33,912 bases of DNA from Omnitrophica bacterium RIFCSPLOWO2_01_FULL_45_10b. GTDB lineage: Bacteria > Omnitrophota > Omnitrophia > Omnitrophales > Danuiimicrobiaceae. Below the pieces are notes generated by a model that was not told where the DNA came from, searched no databases, and saw nothing but the letters and a program-made list of their open reading frames with translations. Below, piece by piece: positions 13,556 through 26,803 of the stretch (the stretch's first letter is position 1; the number at the start of each line of letters is the position of its first letter). Location: contig MHFM01000015.1 in NCBI GenBank assembly GCA_001804205.1, positions 5,044-38,955 on the forward strand. The letters run 5' to 3'. The position numbers were made by a program, and so were the translations under genes.

Positions 13556-14146
13556 ATGAAACGCCTGAAATTGCCTGTTTTTGTACTTTCCGTACTGTTC
13601 CTATTCACCCAGTCCCTTTTCGCCGCTACCTATAAGATTGATTTGGACCACACGGCAGTTTCTTTTAAGGTCCGTCATTTGCTTTCTAACGTTCAAGGGC
13701 ATTTTAAGGAATTTGAAGGCTCTTTTGTTTACGACCCCGATCATCCTGAAACTTGGAAGGCCAATACCACCATTCAGGTTGCCAGCATTGATACCAATGT
13801 AGCCCAGCGGGATAAGCATTTACGTTCCCCAGATTTCTTTGACGCAGAAAAATACCCTACCATCACCTTTGTCAGCACCGGCGTTACCGATATGACACCG
13901 AACAGCGCAAAACTAAACGGTATGCTTACGATCCATGGAGTTGAGAAACCCGTGACGCTCGATCTTGAAATTCTTGGCGTGGCGAAAGATCCTTGGGGCA
14001 ATACCCGGGCTGGTTTTTCAGCCACAACGAAAATTAATCGGAAAGATTTTGGAATTACCTGGAATAAGGCTTTAGAAGCCGGGAAAGTCTTAGTGGGCGA
14101 TGAAGTTGTGATTACGCTTGAAGTGGAAGGGTTACTTCAGGAATAA
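13556..14146 (+). CDS. YceI family periplasmic protein
   Basis: Signal peptide; YKIDLDHTAVSFKVRHLLSNVQGHFKEFEGSFVYD, KHLRSPDFFDAEKYPTITF, KLNGMLTIHGVEKPVTL are the YceI pattern. ATG 13556 with aaggag RBS. Confidence 0.95.
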   Translation: MKRLKLPVFVLSVLFLFTQSLFAATYKIDLDHTAVSFKVRHLLSNVQGHFKEFEGSFVYDPDHPETWKANTTIQVASIDTNVAQRDKHLRSPDFFDAEKYPTITFVSTGVTDMTPNSAKLNGMLTIHGVEKPVTLDLEILGVAKDPWGNTRAGFSATTKINRKDFGITWNKALEAGKVLVGDEVVITLEVEGLLQE

Positions 14147-14157
14147 GGGCAATCAAT

Positions 14158-14300
14158 TGAGCCATCGGGAAACTTTTAATCTGTCCCCGATGGCTCAGGA
14201 TTTCCTTCAAGGTAACCCTCTGCCAGCTTCATTGAACTTGAGTCTTCAATTCGATGAAGCTGGCGAGGGTGAGGGGTCGGGGGAACTCCCCGACCCCTCA
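14158..14300 (+). promoter_or_regulatory. Three adjacent strong stem-loops in the leader of the Cys-rich peptide gene
   Basis: H1 TGAGCCATCGGG/CCCGATGGCTCA (14158-14197, 12 bp); H2 ACCCTC(T)GCCAGCTTCAT/ATGAAGCTGGCGAGGGT (14215-14270, 17 bp with 1-nt bulge); H3 TGAGGGGTCGGGG/CCCCGACCCCTCA (14270-14300, 13 bp). Confidence 0.75.
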
Positions 14301-14351
14301 ATCAATTCGAACGCTAGGCGTGTAGTCAAACAACAACAAGGAGGAGTATAA

Positions 14352-14630
14352 GTGAATAAGAAAGTGAATAAGAAGAAAATGTTGTTAGCCGCTTCCGTTG
14401 CAGGTTTGGTTGCTGTCGCAGGAATGGTACTTCCGGCCAGCACCGTATTTGCAGCCGATGTTGCTTGCTCAGGTATCAATGCTTGCAAAGGAACCGGAGC
14501 TTGCGGCGGTAAGGGAAATGCCTGCGCCGGCAAAAATGCCTGCAAAGGACAAGGCTGGATGATGGTTGGATCTGAAGCTGCTTGCACAACAGCGGGCGGC
14601 ACATTAGTTCCTGCGCCAGCAGCCGTCTAA
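14352..14630 (+). CDS. Cys-rich secreted peptide, candidate MNIO-modified RiPP (bufferin-like) precursor
   Basis: GTG start after aaggaggag RBS; signal peptide ending ASTVFA; six Cys in ACSGINACKGTGACGGKGNACAGKNACKGQGW..C; immediately upstream of a DUF692-DUF2063 gene. Confidence 0.75.
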   Translation: MNKKVNKKKMLLAASVAGLVAVAGMVLPASTVFAADVACSGINACKGTGACGGKGNACAGKNACKGQGWMMVGSEAACTTAGGTLVPAPAAV

Positions 14631-14662
14631 TTTTTTAGATTGGAACAAGTGTCAATAGGATA

Positions 14663-16516
14663 ATGACGATGGCATCGAATTTATGGCCAATACTAGGTTG
14701 CGGGGCAGGACTTAGGAGCCAACATTATCCAGTGATTACCGAAACATGGCCCAAAGATGTGGATTGGTTTGAGGCCGTTTCGGAAAATTACATGGATACG
14801 GGCGGCCGCCCCCTTCATATTTTGGAAGAGGTCCGTCGGCATTATCCTATTGCACTTCACGGTACCGCACTTTCTATTGGTTCCTCAGATCCACTTAACC
14901 CCGCTTATCTCGAACGATTAAAGAAATTGATCGAACGAATCGACCCCTTTCTTGTTTCCGATCATTTGTGTTGGTCGGGCGTAGAGGGTGAGCAGCTTCA
15001 TGATTTATTGCCGCTTCCTTTTACCGAAGAATCCATTCAACATGTTGTCCGGCGCGTTCAACACATTCAGGAGTTCTTAGGCCGAAGATTCGTTTTAGAA
15101 AACGTTTCAACTTATGTGACCTATCAACATTCCGCCATGCCAGAATGGGAATTTTTAACCGAGGTAGCCAAGCGCTCAGGTTGCGGCCTTTTACTCGATA
15201 TCAATAATGTATATGTGAATGCCACGAATCATCGATTTGATCCTTATGAATACCTGCGCCACATTCCGCATGATCTCATCGCTCAGATTCATTTGGCTGG
15301 GCATACTGACATGGGCGATTTTCTTTTTGATACGCACAACAAACCAGTGATTGATTCGGTATGGGATTTATACCGAGAAGCGCTCAAGCATTGGGGCCAG
15401 GTGTCAACGTTGATCGAATGGGATGAAAACATTCCGCCCTTTGAACAGTTGCTTGAAGAAGTCAGAAAAGCAAAAGTGATTTATAAAAAGTTTGAAGGGC
15501 AAAAACCCGTCATTGCGAGGAGTTTCAACGGAACGACGAAGCAATCTGACACAACATGTCATCCTGAGGCGAAGCCGAAGGATCTCAAGATTCTTTCCGC
15601 CACCCAGACTGGCGAACCCGCCGTTCTGCTGGGCGGGCGCTCCGCTCAGAATGACAGCATTGGATTGCTTCGGCCTCATTCGGACAGCCGCCTCGCAATG
15701 ACGAATGCCGCCTCGCTTCTAGAAATTCAGCATTGGCTGAAATTACAAATTCATCCGGATGTAACATATCGTGGCACACTACCGGAAAATTTATTGAATT
15801 CTCAAGGTGGTTTACCCGGAGCGGAGCGGGTTCAAGTTTACGCCAATGGTTACCCTTCGCGGATTCGGGAATCATTAAATGAAGTTTACGAAGCAGTTCA
15901 TTATGTGTTGGGCGATGAACATTTTTCTGATTTGTGCCACGCCTATGCCGAGCACTATCACTCTCGGGATTACAACCTCAATTTTGTCGGCCGGCACATG
16001 GCCGAATTTCTGAAGGCTTCACCTTGGATTAAAGAATTTCCCTTTCTTCCGGATTTAGCAAAACTTGAATGGTTGATTTGGGAAGCGTTTCACGCATTTG
16101 ATGGCGAGCCGTTTACCCCGCTTCAGGCATCAAAAATCCCGATGGAAGATTGGGAACGTGCGCAGTTTATTTTTCAACCTTCCGCAGGACTGATTGCTTC
16201 ACCGTGGCCCATCCTTGATATCTGGCGCCTGCGCCGCGAGGCGAGGCAAGGATTGAGAGTTGATATTAAGCGCTCTCAGCAAATTTTGGTGGGGCGCAAG
16301 AATGATCAGGTGCGATGCGAACTGATTGATAAAAATCAATATCGATTAATTGAAGGGTTGCTTCAAAAACAAACTTTGGGAGCGGTATGCGAAGCTTTAG
16401 CGGAAGAAACTGAAGAGGAAGCACTTCCAATCGCCGCATGGTTTTCCAATTGGATTCAGGAAGGTTTGATTTTGCGCTGTGAAGTTCCCAAGAAAGCCGT
16501 GTTAGTGGCAAAATAG
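14663..16516 (+). CDS. DUF692 (MNIO, BufB-like) - DUF2063 (BufC-like) fusion protein
   Basis: N-terminal DUF692 motifs: GAGLRSQHYP, LHGTALSIGSSDPL, VSDHLCWSG, VLENVSTYV, LLLDINNVYVNATNH, QIHLAGHTD, TLIEWDENIP. C-terminal LLEIQHWLKLQIHPD...ERVQVYANGYPSRIRESLNEVYEAVHYVLGDEHFSDLCHAYAEHYHS is DUF2063-like. One uninterrupted 617-aa frame. Confidence 0.9.
   Translation: MTMASNLWPILGCGAGLRSQHYPVITETWPKDVDWFEAVSENYMDTGGRPLHILEEVRRHYPIALHGTALSIGSSDPLNPAYLERLKKLIERIDPFLVSDHLCWSGVEGEQLHDLLPLPFTEESIQHVVRRVQHIQEFLGRRFVLENVSTYVTYQHSAMPEWEFLTEVAKRSGCGLLLDINNVYVNATNHRFDPYEYLRHIPHDLIAQIHLAGHTDMGDFLFDTHNKPVIDSVWDLYREALKHWGQVSTLIEWDENIPPFEQLLEEVRKAKVIYKKFEGQKPVIARSFNGTTKQSDTTCHPEAKPKDLKILSATQTGEPAVLLGGRSAQNDSIGLLRPHSDSRLAMTNAASLLEIQHWLKLQIHPDVTYRGTLPENLLNSQGGLPGAERVQVYANGYPSRIRESLNEVYEAVHYVLGDEHFSDLCHAYAEHYHSRDYNLNFVGRHMAEFLKASPWIKEFPFLPDLAKLEWLIWEAFHAFDGEPFTPLQASKIPMEDWERAQFIFQPSAGLIASPWPILDIWRLRREARQGLRVDIKRSQQILVGRKNDQVRCELIDKNQYRLIEGLLQKQTLGAVCEALAEETEEEALPIAAWFSNWIQEGLILRCEVPKKAVLVAK
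15508..15703. repeat. Nested palindromic repeat inserted in frame within the DUF692-DUF2063 gene
   Basis: Perfect 13-nt terminal inverted repeats CGTCATTGCGAGG (15508-15520) / CCTCGCAATGACG (15691-15703); gaagcaatc/gattgcttc inner arms; inner TGTCATCCTGAG...GCTCAGAATGACA element. Confidence 0.85.
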
Positions 16517-16527
16517 AGGAGGTAGTT

Positions 16528-17172
16528 ATGGGTAAGCAATATTATTTTGCAGTGCTTTGTTTGGCTTTGATTTTGTCCGCTTGTACTTCCGTTCACGCTC
16601 CATCTGGATTTTTGGGAGATTACTCCCACTTTTCAGAGGAGAAGGGTGAGCACTTTCGGCAGGAATATGTAGCTGAGGGTGTTGATCTCACCAAATATAC
16701 CAAGGCAAAAGTAAATCCCGTTGAGCTTAAGTATTTTGAAAATGCCGCCGGTACATTTACCGAAGACGATTCAAATTATCTCGCCTCTCGTTTACAAGAA
16801 AGCCTTGAGGCTGAACTTGCCAATAAATACCAAGTCTTGGGGCCGGCTGAACGTCCTGATGAACGGACTCTTGTGGTAAGCCCGGCACTTGTTTATGTTA
16901 AAATGCCGGAACGCCTCCTTAATGTGGCAACCGCTTGGTTGATCGGCTTTCAATTTTCAAAAGGCGCCGCTGCTTTTGAGGCCAAATTAACAGATGGAGG
17001 GAGCGGAAAAGAACTTGCCCTTGTTACCGAACAAAGAAAATCGGGTGGTGGTATCAAGGACATCAAATCCATATTGATCGGTGGTTTTTTCAAGTTTATG
17101 CATGCCGAAGGGGCTTTTAAACGATGGGGTCAGAATTTTGTTGATCTAGGCACGCCCGAAAGCACTTCTTAA
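16528..17172 (+). CDS. DUF3313-like lipoprotein
   Basis: Lipobox LILSAC; SGFLGDYSHF near the mature N-terminus as in DUF3313 proteins; RBS gaggaggt; 11 nt downstream of the fusion gene. Confidence 0.7.
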   Translation: MGKQYYFAVLCLALILSACTSVHAPSGFLGDYSHFSEEKGEHFRQEYVAEGVDLTKYTKAKVNPVELKYFENAAGTFTEDDSNYLASRLQESLEAELANKYQVLGPAERPDERTLVVSPALVYVKMPERLLNVATAWLIGFQFSKGAAAFEAKLTDGGSGKELALVTEQRKSGGGIKDIKSILIGGFFKFMHAEGAFKRWGQNFVDLGTPESTS

Positions 17173-17197
17173 AGCAGTTAAATCTTTTTCAGGAAAC

Positions 17198-17238
17198 AAA
17201 AACTCCGTTTGAAAAAGACGGAGTTTTTGTTTTTTTTC
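17198..17238 (+). terminator. Rho-independent terminator between the DUF3313-like gene and sulP
   Basis: AAAAACTCCGT-TTGAAAAAG-ACGGAGTTTTT, 11 bp perfect, then G and T8. Confidence 0.92.
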
Positions 17239-19832: not shown

Positions 19833-22079
19833 ATGATGTTGATATCTACCACAAGCCAATTTTCACAGGGTGAAATTATCGCTCTTTGGTCGGTGTTAGG
19901 CACCGCCATCGCAGGGCTTTTATATGCCGGTTTTCTCATGGCTCAAGTATTGAGAGAAGACTGCGGAACAAAGCTCATGCAGGAAATCAGCGGCTCTATC
20001 CGGACAGGAGCCAATGCGTATCTTTACCGCCAGTTTAAAACCATTGCCTTCTTAATTTTGCTTTTAACCGCCGCTCTTTATTTCACAGCCGGCGAAAAAC
20101 ACATTGCTTTGGGGCGTGCCTGCGCCTTTCTGATGGGTTCTATTTTTTCTGCAACGGTTGGTTTTGTCGGAATGAATCTCGCCGTGCGGGGAAACGTACG
20201 TGTGGCAGCAGCAGCCAACAGAAAAAGTTTTAGCCAAGCGCTGAAGATTGCCTATCGCACTGGAACAATCACAGGCATGCTGACCGACGGCCTCGGGCTT
20301 TTAGGCGGTACTTTGATTTTTATGATTTATGGCGAGAAAGCGTATGAAGTTCTCTTGGGATTTGGTTTCGGAGGCACTTTGCTCGCACTCTTTATGAGAG
20401 TAGGCGGTGGAATTTTTACCAAAGCAGCGGATGTAGGCGCTGATTTGGTTGGTAAAATTGAAAAAAATATTCCGGAAGACGATCCTCGAAATGCGGCTAC
20501 GATTGCAGATAATGTTGGAGACAATGTGGGCGATTGCGCCGGCATGGCTGCGGATATTTTTGAATCTTATGAAGTGACGATTGTCTCCGCCATGATTTTG
20601 GGCTGGGCTTCTTTCGGCCACAAGGGAGTTATTTTCCCACTATTGGTAAGAGCTGTCGGCGTTATTGCTTCGATTATCGGAACGTATGCCGTCCGCACCA
20701 AAGAAGCGGTCCGCGATGCGATGAAAGCAATTAATATCGGATTTCTTCTTTCAGCAATTATTTCAATTGCGGGCTTTAGCCTTATCGGATTTTTTTACTT
20801 TCGCTTTTCAGACAAACCCCAATTACCTTATTGGCTCAGCCTCGGCGTTCCCGGCCTTGATATGCGTCCCGTTTGGACGACCATGGTGGGAATTGTTCTC
20901 GCGGTGACAATTAACCGGCTTACCGAATACTTTACCGACACGCACAAAACCCCCGTCAAGTCCGTTGCCGAGTCCTGTCAAACAGGGCATGCCACTACAA
21001 TCATTACAGGTTTAGCGGTCGGTCTTGAAAGCACCGTATGGGCGATTCTCGTCATTGCAGTCGCGATTTTGATTTCAGCCGTGATTTATCAAGGTACGAA
21101 TCCAACCTTTATCGCTTATGGCGTATCCATGTGCGGAATCGGAATGTTAACGCTTACCGGCAACAATATTTCGATGGATGTGTTCGGACCGGTTGCGGAC
21201 AATGCCAATGGAATCGGTGAAATGGCGCATCTCAATAAAGACGCGCGTCAAATTCTGGCCGATCTTGATGCAGTGGGCAATACAACAAAAGCCATCACCA
21301 AAGGCATCGCGATTGCTTCGGCAGTGGTGGCAGCGATTTCGCTTTTCAATGCTTATATTACCGACATCGGCACCATTACAAAGCAAAGCTACGCCGAAGT
21401 CGCCTCTCTTCTTTCGGTTGCAGATCACAATGTGTTCATTGGGCTTTTAATCGGCGGCGCTATTCCATTTTTATTTAGTTCTTTGACCATTAAAGCGGTA
21501 GGAAGAGCCGCTTTTTTAATCGTCAAAGAAGTAAGAGAACAATTAAAAGACAAAGACGTTTGGGAAGGAAAAAAACTCCCCGATTATGCGCGCGTCGTTT
21601 CCATTTGTACGGCTGCGGCACAAAAAGAATTAATTCGGCCCGGTATTCTCGCGATCTTAACGCCGCTTTTGGTTGGATTTCTCCTCAAAAAAGAAGCGCT
21701 CGGCGGATTTCTTGCCGGAATGATTCTTTCCGGCCAGCTCCTTGCTGTTTTCATGGCCAATGCAGGCGGAGCGTGGGACAACGCCAAGAAATTAATCGAA
21801 GACGGCCTCTTTGGAGGCAAGGGTTCCGAAGCTCATAAAGCTTCCGTTACCGGAGATACCGTGGGAGATCCGCTCAAAGACACCGCAGGCCCTGCACTGA
21901 ATCCTCTCATCAAAGTGATGAACATGGTTGCGCTTTTGGCGATTCCGCTCGTGGTTCGATATGAAAACTCACCGAAAGTTTTCTGGTGCGCTGCTATCGC
22001 AGGAATTTTTCTTTTGATTCTGCTCATTCGCAATCCGAAACAAACCAAGGAAGAGCTTGAAATTCTAAAGCGGGCATAG
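19833..22079 (+). CDS. hppA: Membrane-bound pyrophosphate-energised proton pump (probably K+-independent type)
   Basis: GGGIFTKAADVGADLVGKIEKNIPEDDPRNAATIADNVGDNVGDCAGMAADIFESY; GNTTKAITKG with K at the K+-dependence position. Confidence 0.97.
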   Translation: MMLISTTSQFSQGEIIALWSVLGTAIAGLLYAGFLMAQVLREDCGTKLMQEISGSIRTGANAYLYRQFKTIAFLILLLTAALYFTAGEKHIALGRACAFLMGSIFSATVGFVGMNLAVRGNVRVAAAANRKSFSQALKIAYRTGTITGMLTDGLGLLGGTLIFMIYGEKAYEVLLGFGFGGTLLALFMRVGGGIFTKAADVGADLVGKIEKNIPEDDPRNAATIADNVGDNVGDCAGMAADIFESYEVTIVSAMILGWASFGHKGVIFPLLVRAVGVIASIIGTYAVRTKEAVRDAMKAINIGFLLSAIISIAGFSLIGFFYFRFSDKPQLPYWLSLGVPGLDMRPVWTTMVGIVLAVTINRLTEYFTDTHKTPVKSVAESCQTGHATTIITGLAVGLESTVWAILVIAVAILISAVIYQGTNPTFIAYGVSMCGIGMLTLTGNNISMDVFGPVADNANGIGEMAHLNKDARQILADLDAVGNTTKAITKGIAIASAVVAAISLFNAYITDIGTITKQSYAEVASLLSVADHNVFIGLLIGGAIPFLFSSLTIKAVGRAAFLIVKEVREQLKDKDVWEGKKLPDYARVVSICTAAAQKELIRPGILAILTPLLVGFLLKKEALGGFLAGMILSGQLLAVFMANAGGAWDNAKKLIEDGLFGGKGSEAHKASVTGDTVGDPLKDTAGPALNPLIKVMNMVALLAIPLVVRYENSPKVFWCAAIAGIFLLILLIRNPKQTKEELEILKRA

Positions 22080-22085
22080 ACATGC

Positions 22086-22273
22086 CGTCATTGCGAGGCA
22101 GCGCTCTAAATGAAGCCGAAGCAATCCCGGATCTGTCATTCCCGCGGAAGCGGGAATCTATAGATCCCCGCTTTAAACACACTGCGCGCTTTTGCGCGAG
22201 CACTCTTCGCGCAGAACTTGACGTTCTGCTGCGAAAGTGTGCGGGGATGACAACATTCTATCTCGCAATGACG
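22086..22273. repeat. Nested palindromic repeat cluster between hppA and cstA
   Basis: Outer CGTCATTGCGAGG...CTCGCAATGACG arms enclose an inner TGTCATTCCCGCGGAAGCGGGAATC...GCGGGGATGACA (22134-22252), which contains further hairpins (CGCAGAAC/GTTCTG). Confidence 0.85.
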
Positions 22274-25831: not shown

Positions 25832-26803
25832 GTGAGAAGCGAAGTCAATTCCCTGCCAAAACTTTTTCTGGATCGGCTGCGTAAAATCATCCCATCACAA
25901 AAGTTTGACGTTATTGCCAATACCTTCGCGCAAACGAAACCCACCACATTTCGTGTTAATTCACTCAAAGCTTCACGGCAAGCCGTGCGGGAGAAATTGG
26001 AACATCAGGGATTTAAACTCGCACCTGTTTCATGGTTTCCCGATGCTTTTGTGCTTCGAGAGGGCCGCTTGAGAGAACTTGAAAAAACAGAAAGTTATCA
26101 AGCCGGAGAAATTTACGTACAAAACCTTTCGAGCATGATTCCGCCCCTTGTTCTTGATCCAAAACCCGGCGAATCAATTTTGGATCTTACAGCAGCGCCA
26201 GGCAGCAAAACGACACAGATGGCGTGTTTCATGCAGGGGAGGGGGAAAATTGTTGCGAATGAAAGCGACCGGATTCGTTATTCTAAATTAAAGGCAAATG
26301 TTGAGCTCCAAGCGGCCAACAATGTGGAACTTGTGTTGAGTTATGGGGAATCCTTTGGCAAAAAATATCCCGAATGTTTTGACCGCGTTCTTTTGGATGC
26401 CCCATGCAGCGCCGAAGGACGTTTCAATGTGAACGAACCGGCCTCGTATCGTTATTGGAATCTTGATAGAGTTCGACAATCCGCCAAGCTTCAGAAAAAA
26501 TTGCTCTCGTCAGCGCTCACGGCGCTTAAACCAGGAGGCGCCTTGGTTTATTCGACGTGTACATTTGCGCCGGAGGAAAACGAGGCGGTAGTCAATGAAG
26601 CGCTTGAAAAATTCGACGGTTTTTTGGAACTGGTAGGGGCAATTCATGAATTGCCCCTACTTGTGGTCCCCAATCGCATGAGCGGGCTTCCGGCGTGGGA
26701 CGGAAGGAAATTCCACCCTTCTCTAACAAAAGCCGTTCGGATCCTTCCCGCATCAGAAATGGAAGGATTTTTCGTAGCCAGGTTGCGCAAAGCTCCTGCT
26801 TAA
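25832..26803 (+). CDS. RsmB/RsmF/NOL1-type RNA (cytosine-C5) methyltransferase
   Basis: ILDLTAAPGSKTTQMA, FDRVLLDAPCSAEGRF, GGALVYSTCTFAPEENEAVV, EGFFVARLRK; GTG start. Confidence 0.92.
   Translation: MRSEVNSLPKLFLDRLRKIIPSQKFDVIANTFAQTKPTTFRVNSLKASRQAVREKLEHQGFKLAPVSWFPDAFVLREGRLRELEKTESYQAGEIYVQNLSSMIPPLVLDPKPGESILDLTAAPGSKTTQMACFMQGRGKIVANESDRIRYSKLKANVELQAANNVELVLSYGESFGKKYPECFDRVLLDAPCSAEGRFNVNEPASYRYWNLDRVRQSAKLQKKLLSSALTALKPGGALVYSTCTFAPEENEAVVNEALEKFDGFLELVGAIHELPLLVVPNRMSGLPAWDGRKFHPSLTKAVRILPASEMEGFFVARLRKAPA
26633..26660. repeat. 28-bp perfect palindrome inside the methyltransferase CDS
   Basis: GTAGGGGCAATTCATGAATTGCCCCTAC equals its own reverse complement; adds VGAIHELPL in frame. 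Confidence 0.95.

Follow-up and report, generated by a model that had tools for sequence, protein, structure and literature searches.

The closest described counterparts of the locus analyzed here are the bufferin type 2 (Buf2) clusters, in which a Sec-exported precursor (BufA2) is encoded in an operon with a multinuclear iron oxidase (MNIO; BufB) and a DUF2063/RRE partner (BufC), and in which 90% of precursors have six conserved Cys (PMC12452194). In the HvfA-HvfB-HvfC system, modification of the precursor depends on the partner, and residues N175, D242, and H244 of the third iron site of HvfB are essential (PMC13419390). An engineered, direct HvfB-HvfC fusion that lacks a linker (HvfBC) is fully active and yields markedly more product than co-expressed HvfB and HvfC (PMC13419390). 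MNIO enzymes also act with a partner in the MbnB-MbnC and TglH-TglI heterodimers (PDB 7dz9, 7tcr, and 8hi7), although these consist of separate chains and serve other precursor classes.

Another group of described elements, the RPE-4 and RPE-6 palindromes of Rickettsia and the CGTC-tagged REPs (four published families, each with its own stem, loop, and tail), enter genes in-frame, many of which are DNA-repair genes. Within ORFs they often occur as dimers or groups that code for 20-80 residues (PMC3733652).

Here, we describe a locus in a 33,912-nucleotide stretch of an Omnitrophica bacterium genome (hereafter the window) that very probably represents a bufferin type 2 operon (yceI-bufA2-bufBC) with a single-polypeptide maturase, the linker of which has been repeatedly invaded, in-frame, by dispersed palindromes. 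Like Buf2 clusters, the locus combines a six-Cys precursor bearing a Sec signal peptide with an MNIO and a DUF2063 partner, whose RRE-like part is only weakly recognized; unlike them, BufB and BufC form one chain, the usual upstream neighbor is yceI, and no doxX was seen. The locus shares with the Hvf system and engineered HvfBC a 1:1 enzyme-partner chain, predicted third-site iron ligands, and predicted Sec-signal recognition. However, the fusion described here is natural, its linker spans about 35 to 100 residues among the fused genes, and its precursor belongs to the BufA2 family rather than to the EGKCG family of HvfA. The palindromes resemble the RPEs and CGTC-tagged REPs in their terminal CGTC and in-frame position within ORFs, but differ in their host phylum, in the three-layer nesting of unrelated units, and in having repeatedly entered the linker of one fused protein. 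In addition, no Y1 (RAYT-type) transposase that could act as a mobilizer was found in the window genome.

Organization of the operon

An earlier note on this DNA had proposed a compact bufferin-type MNIO RiPP operon consisting of an atypical Cys-rich peptide, an enzyme-partner fusion, and a lipoprotein. All three ORFs were recovered at the positions given there and lack internal stops (Table 1), and the curated models for BufA2 and BufB, both of which were passed, uphold the bufferin assignment.

Table 1. Features of the operon and of its palindromic elements, numbered from the first position of the window.
Feature	Position	Strand	Details
yceI-family periplasmic protein gene	13556..14146	+	Pfam YceI, E 1.1e-53
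yceI-bufA2 spacer, different composite palindromic repeat	14155..14307		second occurrence of positions 9-161 (at 90%) on another contig
bufA2, bufferin type 2 precursor	14352..14630	+	Sec signal peptide and six-Cys core
bufBC, MNIO maturase and DUF2063/RRE partner	14663..16516	+	single chain, 617 aa
MNIO (DUF692) catalytic domain	14699..15481	+	PF05114, residues 13-273
Outer palindromic element (CGTCATTGCGAGG ... CCTCGCAATGACG)	15508..15703		in-frame interdomain linker; 13/13 complementary arms
Middle palindromic element (TGTCATCCTGAGG ... CAGAATGACA)	15557..15656		inside outer element
Inner 44-nt element (TTCCGCCACCCAGAC...GGGCGGG)	15595..15638		inside middle element; boundaries +/-3 nt
DUF2063 partner domain	15788..16012	+	PF09836, residues 376-450, 49.1 bits, cut-off 27.2
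RRE-like C-terminal part, weak	16283..16453	+	PF22106 NGO1945_C, 15.3 bits, below cut-off 27
DUF3313 lipoprotein	16528..17172	+	PF11769, E 1.4e-20
Intrinsic terminator	17191..17235	+	20-bp stem, -24.2 kcal/mol, z -6.4, T-run

The precursor ORF codes for 92 aa, starts with GTG, is preceded by GGAGGAG, and has a signal peptide that ends at VFA/AD. It passed the NCBIfam model NF050166 (Cu_RiPP_BufA2) with 63.3 bits against a cut-off of 60 and has six Cys as in Buf2. The precursor is therefore not atypical, and this result also rules out that it represents a new family. The six Cys are present in the peptide as described, but the stretch said to contain them (ACSGINACKGTGACGGKGNACAGKNACKGQGW) has only five; the sixth occurs further on, in EAACTTAGG. 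The six-Cys pattern was retained in all 24 precursors that were aligned. While bufA2 is single-copy in the window genome, another genome (G022; L030:658-1287) encodes tandem duplicated BufA2 precursors ahead of one fused BufBC.

The gene yceI, which was left out, is also part of the unit and is the first gene of a conserved yceI-bufA2-bufBC cassette. The order yceI-bufA2-bufB(C) was found in most relatives, and the genes 3' of bufBC vary between their genomes. The lipoprotein gene starts 11 nt past the bufBC stop, as proposed, and is preceded by AGGAGG; it is probably co-transcribed with bufBC. A DUF3313 lipoprotein was not found 3' of bufBC in those relatives whose surroundings were examined; it is not a conserved member of the operon. 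The strong terminator predicted downstream of these genes was also recovered.

The fused maturase and its distribution

Profile searches placed MNIO (E 1e-108) and DUF2063 (E 7e-13) domains on one ORF, in agreement with the domain assignment of the earlier note. BufBC passed NF050167 (MNIO_BufB) with 374.8 bits against a cut-off of 310 and scored below the cut-off of the HvfB model (268.9 bits versus 360). PDB matches included 7dz9, 7tcr, and 8hi7. Residues H66, D100, H101, E146, D179, N181, H210, D223, H225, and E252 were invariant in 26 MNIO sequences, and, by motif via 3BWW, N181, D223, and H225 match the site-3 ligands N175/D242/H244 of HvfB. The C-terminal half matched the HvfC model NF050145 over residues 387-586 with 41 bits, below the cut-off of 142, and had no match in a PDB profile search. 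A single-sequence AlphaFold model of P0002 was too poor for use (mean pLDDT 35.5).

To describe the spread of the fusion, 384 genomes of the phylum were searched, of which 27 had a match; four more came from a second order, and 29 junctions were readable. The genes bufB and bufC were fused at 19 of these junctions and separate at 10, and the fused genes were mostly located within the conserved cassette. Enzyme and partner are joined in one chain, as first proposed, but this is not peculiar to the locus: in several families of the phylum, fusion is the norm. That the fusion is private to one genome or reflects an assembly error is ruled out by the 19 genomes in which it occurs and by the position of the site in the interior of a 50-kb contig. 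Within the taxonomic order of the window genome, one open frame extends across both halves in nine of the 11 matching genomes (the window's included); the other two matches comprise overlapping genes (G011) and a match to the repeat only.

Where the genes are separate, bufB and bufC either abut or share an overlap, in each case within a few tens of bases. The two halves in G287 and G156 are in the same frame with a single stop between them, suggesting that very little is needed for fusion. The halves were probably joined from such abutting or overlapping genes via stop loss or a frameshift. A tree of the MNIO half (30 rows, with G361 counted as fused) requires three changes of state, although it is poorly resolved. 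The best 20 matches among plasmid records were all in two pieces (18 of them annotated as a pair of neighboring genes, the remaining two unannotated), and a Photobacterium locus (L051) likewise comprises two ORFs. A second, distant MNIO (33% identity) was identified in another MNIO cluster (L042; G026:C40:2017-2817) of a genome that also encodes a fused BufBC.

The component parts of this enzyme are known. A natural MNIO-DUF2063 fusion goes unmentioned where PMC12452194 treats fusions, which is no proof of absence, and the single-chain natural form is not mentioned for Buf2 in those parts of the literature that were examined.

Palindromic elements in the linker

The earlier note overlooked the most unusual feature of the fusion ORF, namely that its linker consists of mobile palindromes nested in one another. 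BufBC residues ~283-347 (~65 aa) are the translation of a dispersed repeat, a 196-nt palindromic composite in which three elements are nested and the outer one has a fold z of -6.9. When used as a query, the composite returned 57 matches in its own genome. The outer element is dispersed in many copies, and its arms carry terminal CGTC/GACG. Based on the terminal CGTC, the dispersal, and the in-frame insertion, the linker repeat can be classed with the CGTC-REP/RPE coding palindromes.

A comparison of copies reveals that the layers also occur apart from each other. The outer element was identified without the middle element in L014 and with it in L005, L009, and L002. The inner unit is missing from otherwise matching copies (L005, L009, and L011) and is also found within two other palindrome types (L008 and L012), while L002 is a similar full three-layer composite. 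Since the inner unit comprises 44 nt, which is not a multiple of three, stepwise growth in place would break the frame temporarily. We infer that arrival of the linker as a ready composite is simpler than layer-by-layer growth.

Intragenic copies of the repeat were judged at the best 20 matches. The middle and inner palindromes together are in-frame in the ORF of an AddA-like helicase-nuclease (L003:1501-1605, G000:C16), between UvrD_C (50-374) and PDDEXK_1 (535-721), and the inner element is in-frame in an AddB-like ORF (ADDB_N, UvrD_C; L010:1501-1554, G000:C16). These insertions into otherwise intact genes agree with the behavior described for CGTC-REPs and RPEs (PMC3733652). Further ORFs of the window genome also contain in-frame elements.

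Several additional copies and candidate repeats were observed. The three-layer composite in L002 (1402-1566, G000:C36) is located at the N-terminus of an ORF, in an apparent signal peptide (MKKILS...FALLAMTLLICTSVLLAG). An element between carB and pyrK (L004:1501-1612, G000:C42) extends a CarB-like frame at its C-terminus and, in another frame, is read upstream of PyrK. In another genus of the family, related palindromes are in-frame in an open frame of 5018 codons (L031:1501-1665, G035:C64). Elsewhere in the window, a partial copy of the outer element (22086-22141) occupies the spacer behind a 748-aa ORF (19833-22079), and the 3' end of a methyltransferase-like ORF (25832-26803) looks like another palindromic repeat, with frames of both strands reading 'VGAIHELPL' (26592-26803).

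To evaluate other linkers, those of 14 further fused genes were each compared with the genome of origin, yielding 15 with that of the window. In-frame palindromes of several unrelated families, each with further copies in the home genome, were identified in seven of the 15, the window's included. Several such copies were detected for the linkers of G026, G015, G247, and G212, the last of which contains two unrelated elements. The linkers of G037 and G022 have fewer and more diverged home copies, which is weaker evidence of dispersal, and G037 has an extra, well-dispersed element inside its DUF2063 domain. Conversely, the linkers of G016, G009, G017, and G189 matched only themselves. When compared to shuffled sequences, the fold z of the linkers ranged from -2.5 to -8.8 in the seven with elements and from -2.1 to +1.1 in the others. 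The CGTC-type element is read as VIARS in the window and as HCEE in G026 and G037. The several families and the different frames of the CGTC-type element suggest that the insertions are independent. Collectively, these observations argue for repeated invasion of the BufB-BufC joint, with different repeats put in independently among relatives.

The data do not support the view that fusion generally results from repeat insertion, since no recognizable element is present in the fused genes of G016, G009, G017, G014, G189, and G065. The spacers of the same operons likewise hold repeats; that between yceI and bufA2 has a core of ~105 nt that occurs, whole or in part, in about 16 further copies at 77-96% identity. 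The linker may therefore be merely as permissive as intergenic DNA, and we do not claim that it is a special hot spot. That palindromes become protein preferentially at this joint, where they would aid or lengthen the fusion as a domesticated linker reinvented across lineages, is unlikely.

Proposed function and implications

By analogy with characterized relatives, the DUF2063/RRE half of BufBC would hold the Sec-signal-bearing precursor, bound through its signal peptide, and would maintain the working, mixed-valent di-iron state of the MNIO half. The MNIO half would then oxidize core Cys residues (to 5-thiooxazoles in the related HvfA), and the mature product would be exported to buffer copper or a similar metal. 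The linker that arose by fusion is probably little constrained, such that dispersed palindromes could enter it repeatedly and in-frame. That man-made HvfBC outperforms the co-expressed pair renders a natural fusion plausible.

The target of the operon could instead be zinc, gold, sulfur, or redox stress rather than copper, or the operon could serve in metal uptake. No metal-responsive regulator was seen beside the operon, and non-copper roles are noted for some bufferin clusters (PMC12452194). However, the characterized bufferins act against copper (PMC12452194) and the annotation of the BufA2 model describes a bufferin-type metallophore of the periplasm; a role other than copper buffering is possible but not favored.

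It is quite improbable that the fusion is nominal, with separate BufB and BufC arising from initiation at an in-frame ATG at position 15698 ('MTNAASLLEIQ') or from cleavage in the repeat-coded linker. This ATG, at the end of the element, coincides exactly with the point where the BufC half begins, and BufC proteins encoded separately in other lineages have a Met just ahead of the same motif. Nevertheless, no Shine-Dalgarno-like sequence precedes position 15698, a single frame stays open in other fused relatives with different linkers, and the man-made direct fusion is active (PMC13419390). Finally, despite the length of the insertion (about 65 aa) and the lack of the operon in the genus relatives examined, whose genomes are incomplete, it is very improbable that bufBC is a damaged, decaying gene that is open by chance, since neither domain is disrupted and the ligand residues are invariant, the insert is in the variable linker outside of the domains, and frames with elements at the joint are open in several lineages.

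Collectively, our findings point to a bufferin type 2 operon with a single-chain maturase, whose joint adds a further example to the known phenomenon of coding palindromes. They offer MNIO and partner naturally united in one chain, with linkers of ~35 to 100 residues to choose from, in a family whose iron cluster is at present best studied in an engineered fusion. They also provide a clear case in which mobile palindromes have become protein at one and the same joint in several lineages, outside Rickettsia and the other genomes in which REPs have been surveyed. Whether coding palindromes are tolerated or useful is an old question that linker swaps in these enzymes make directly testable.
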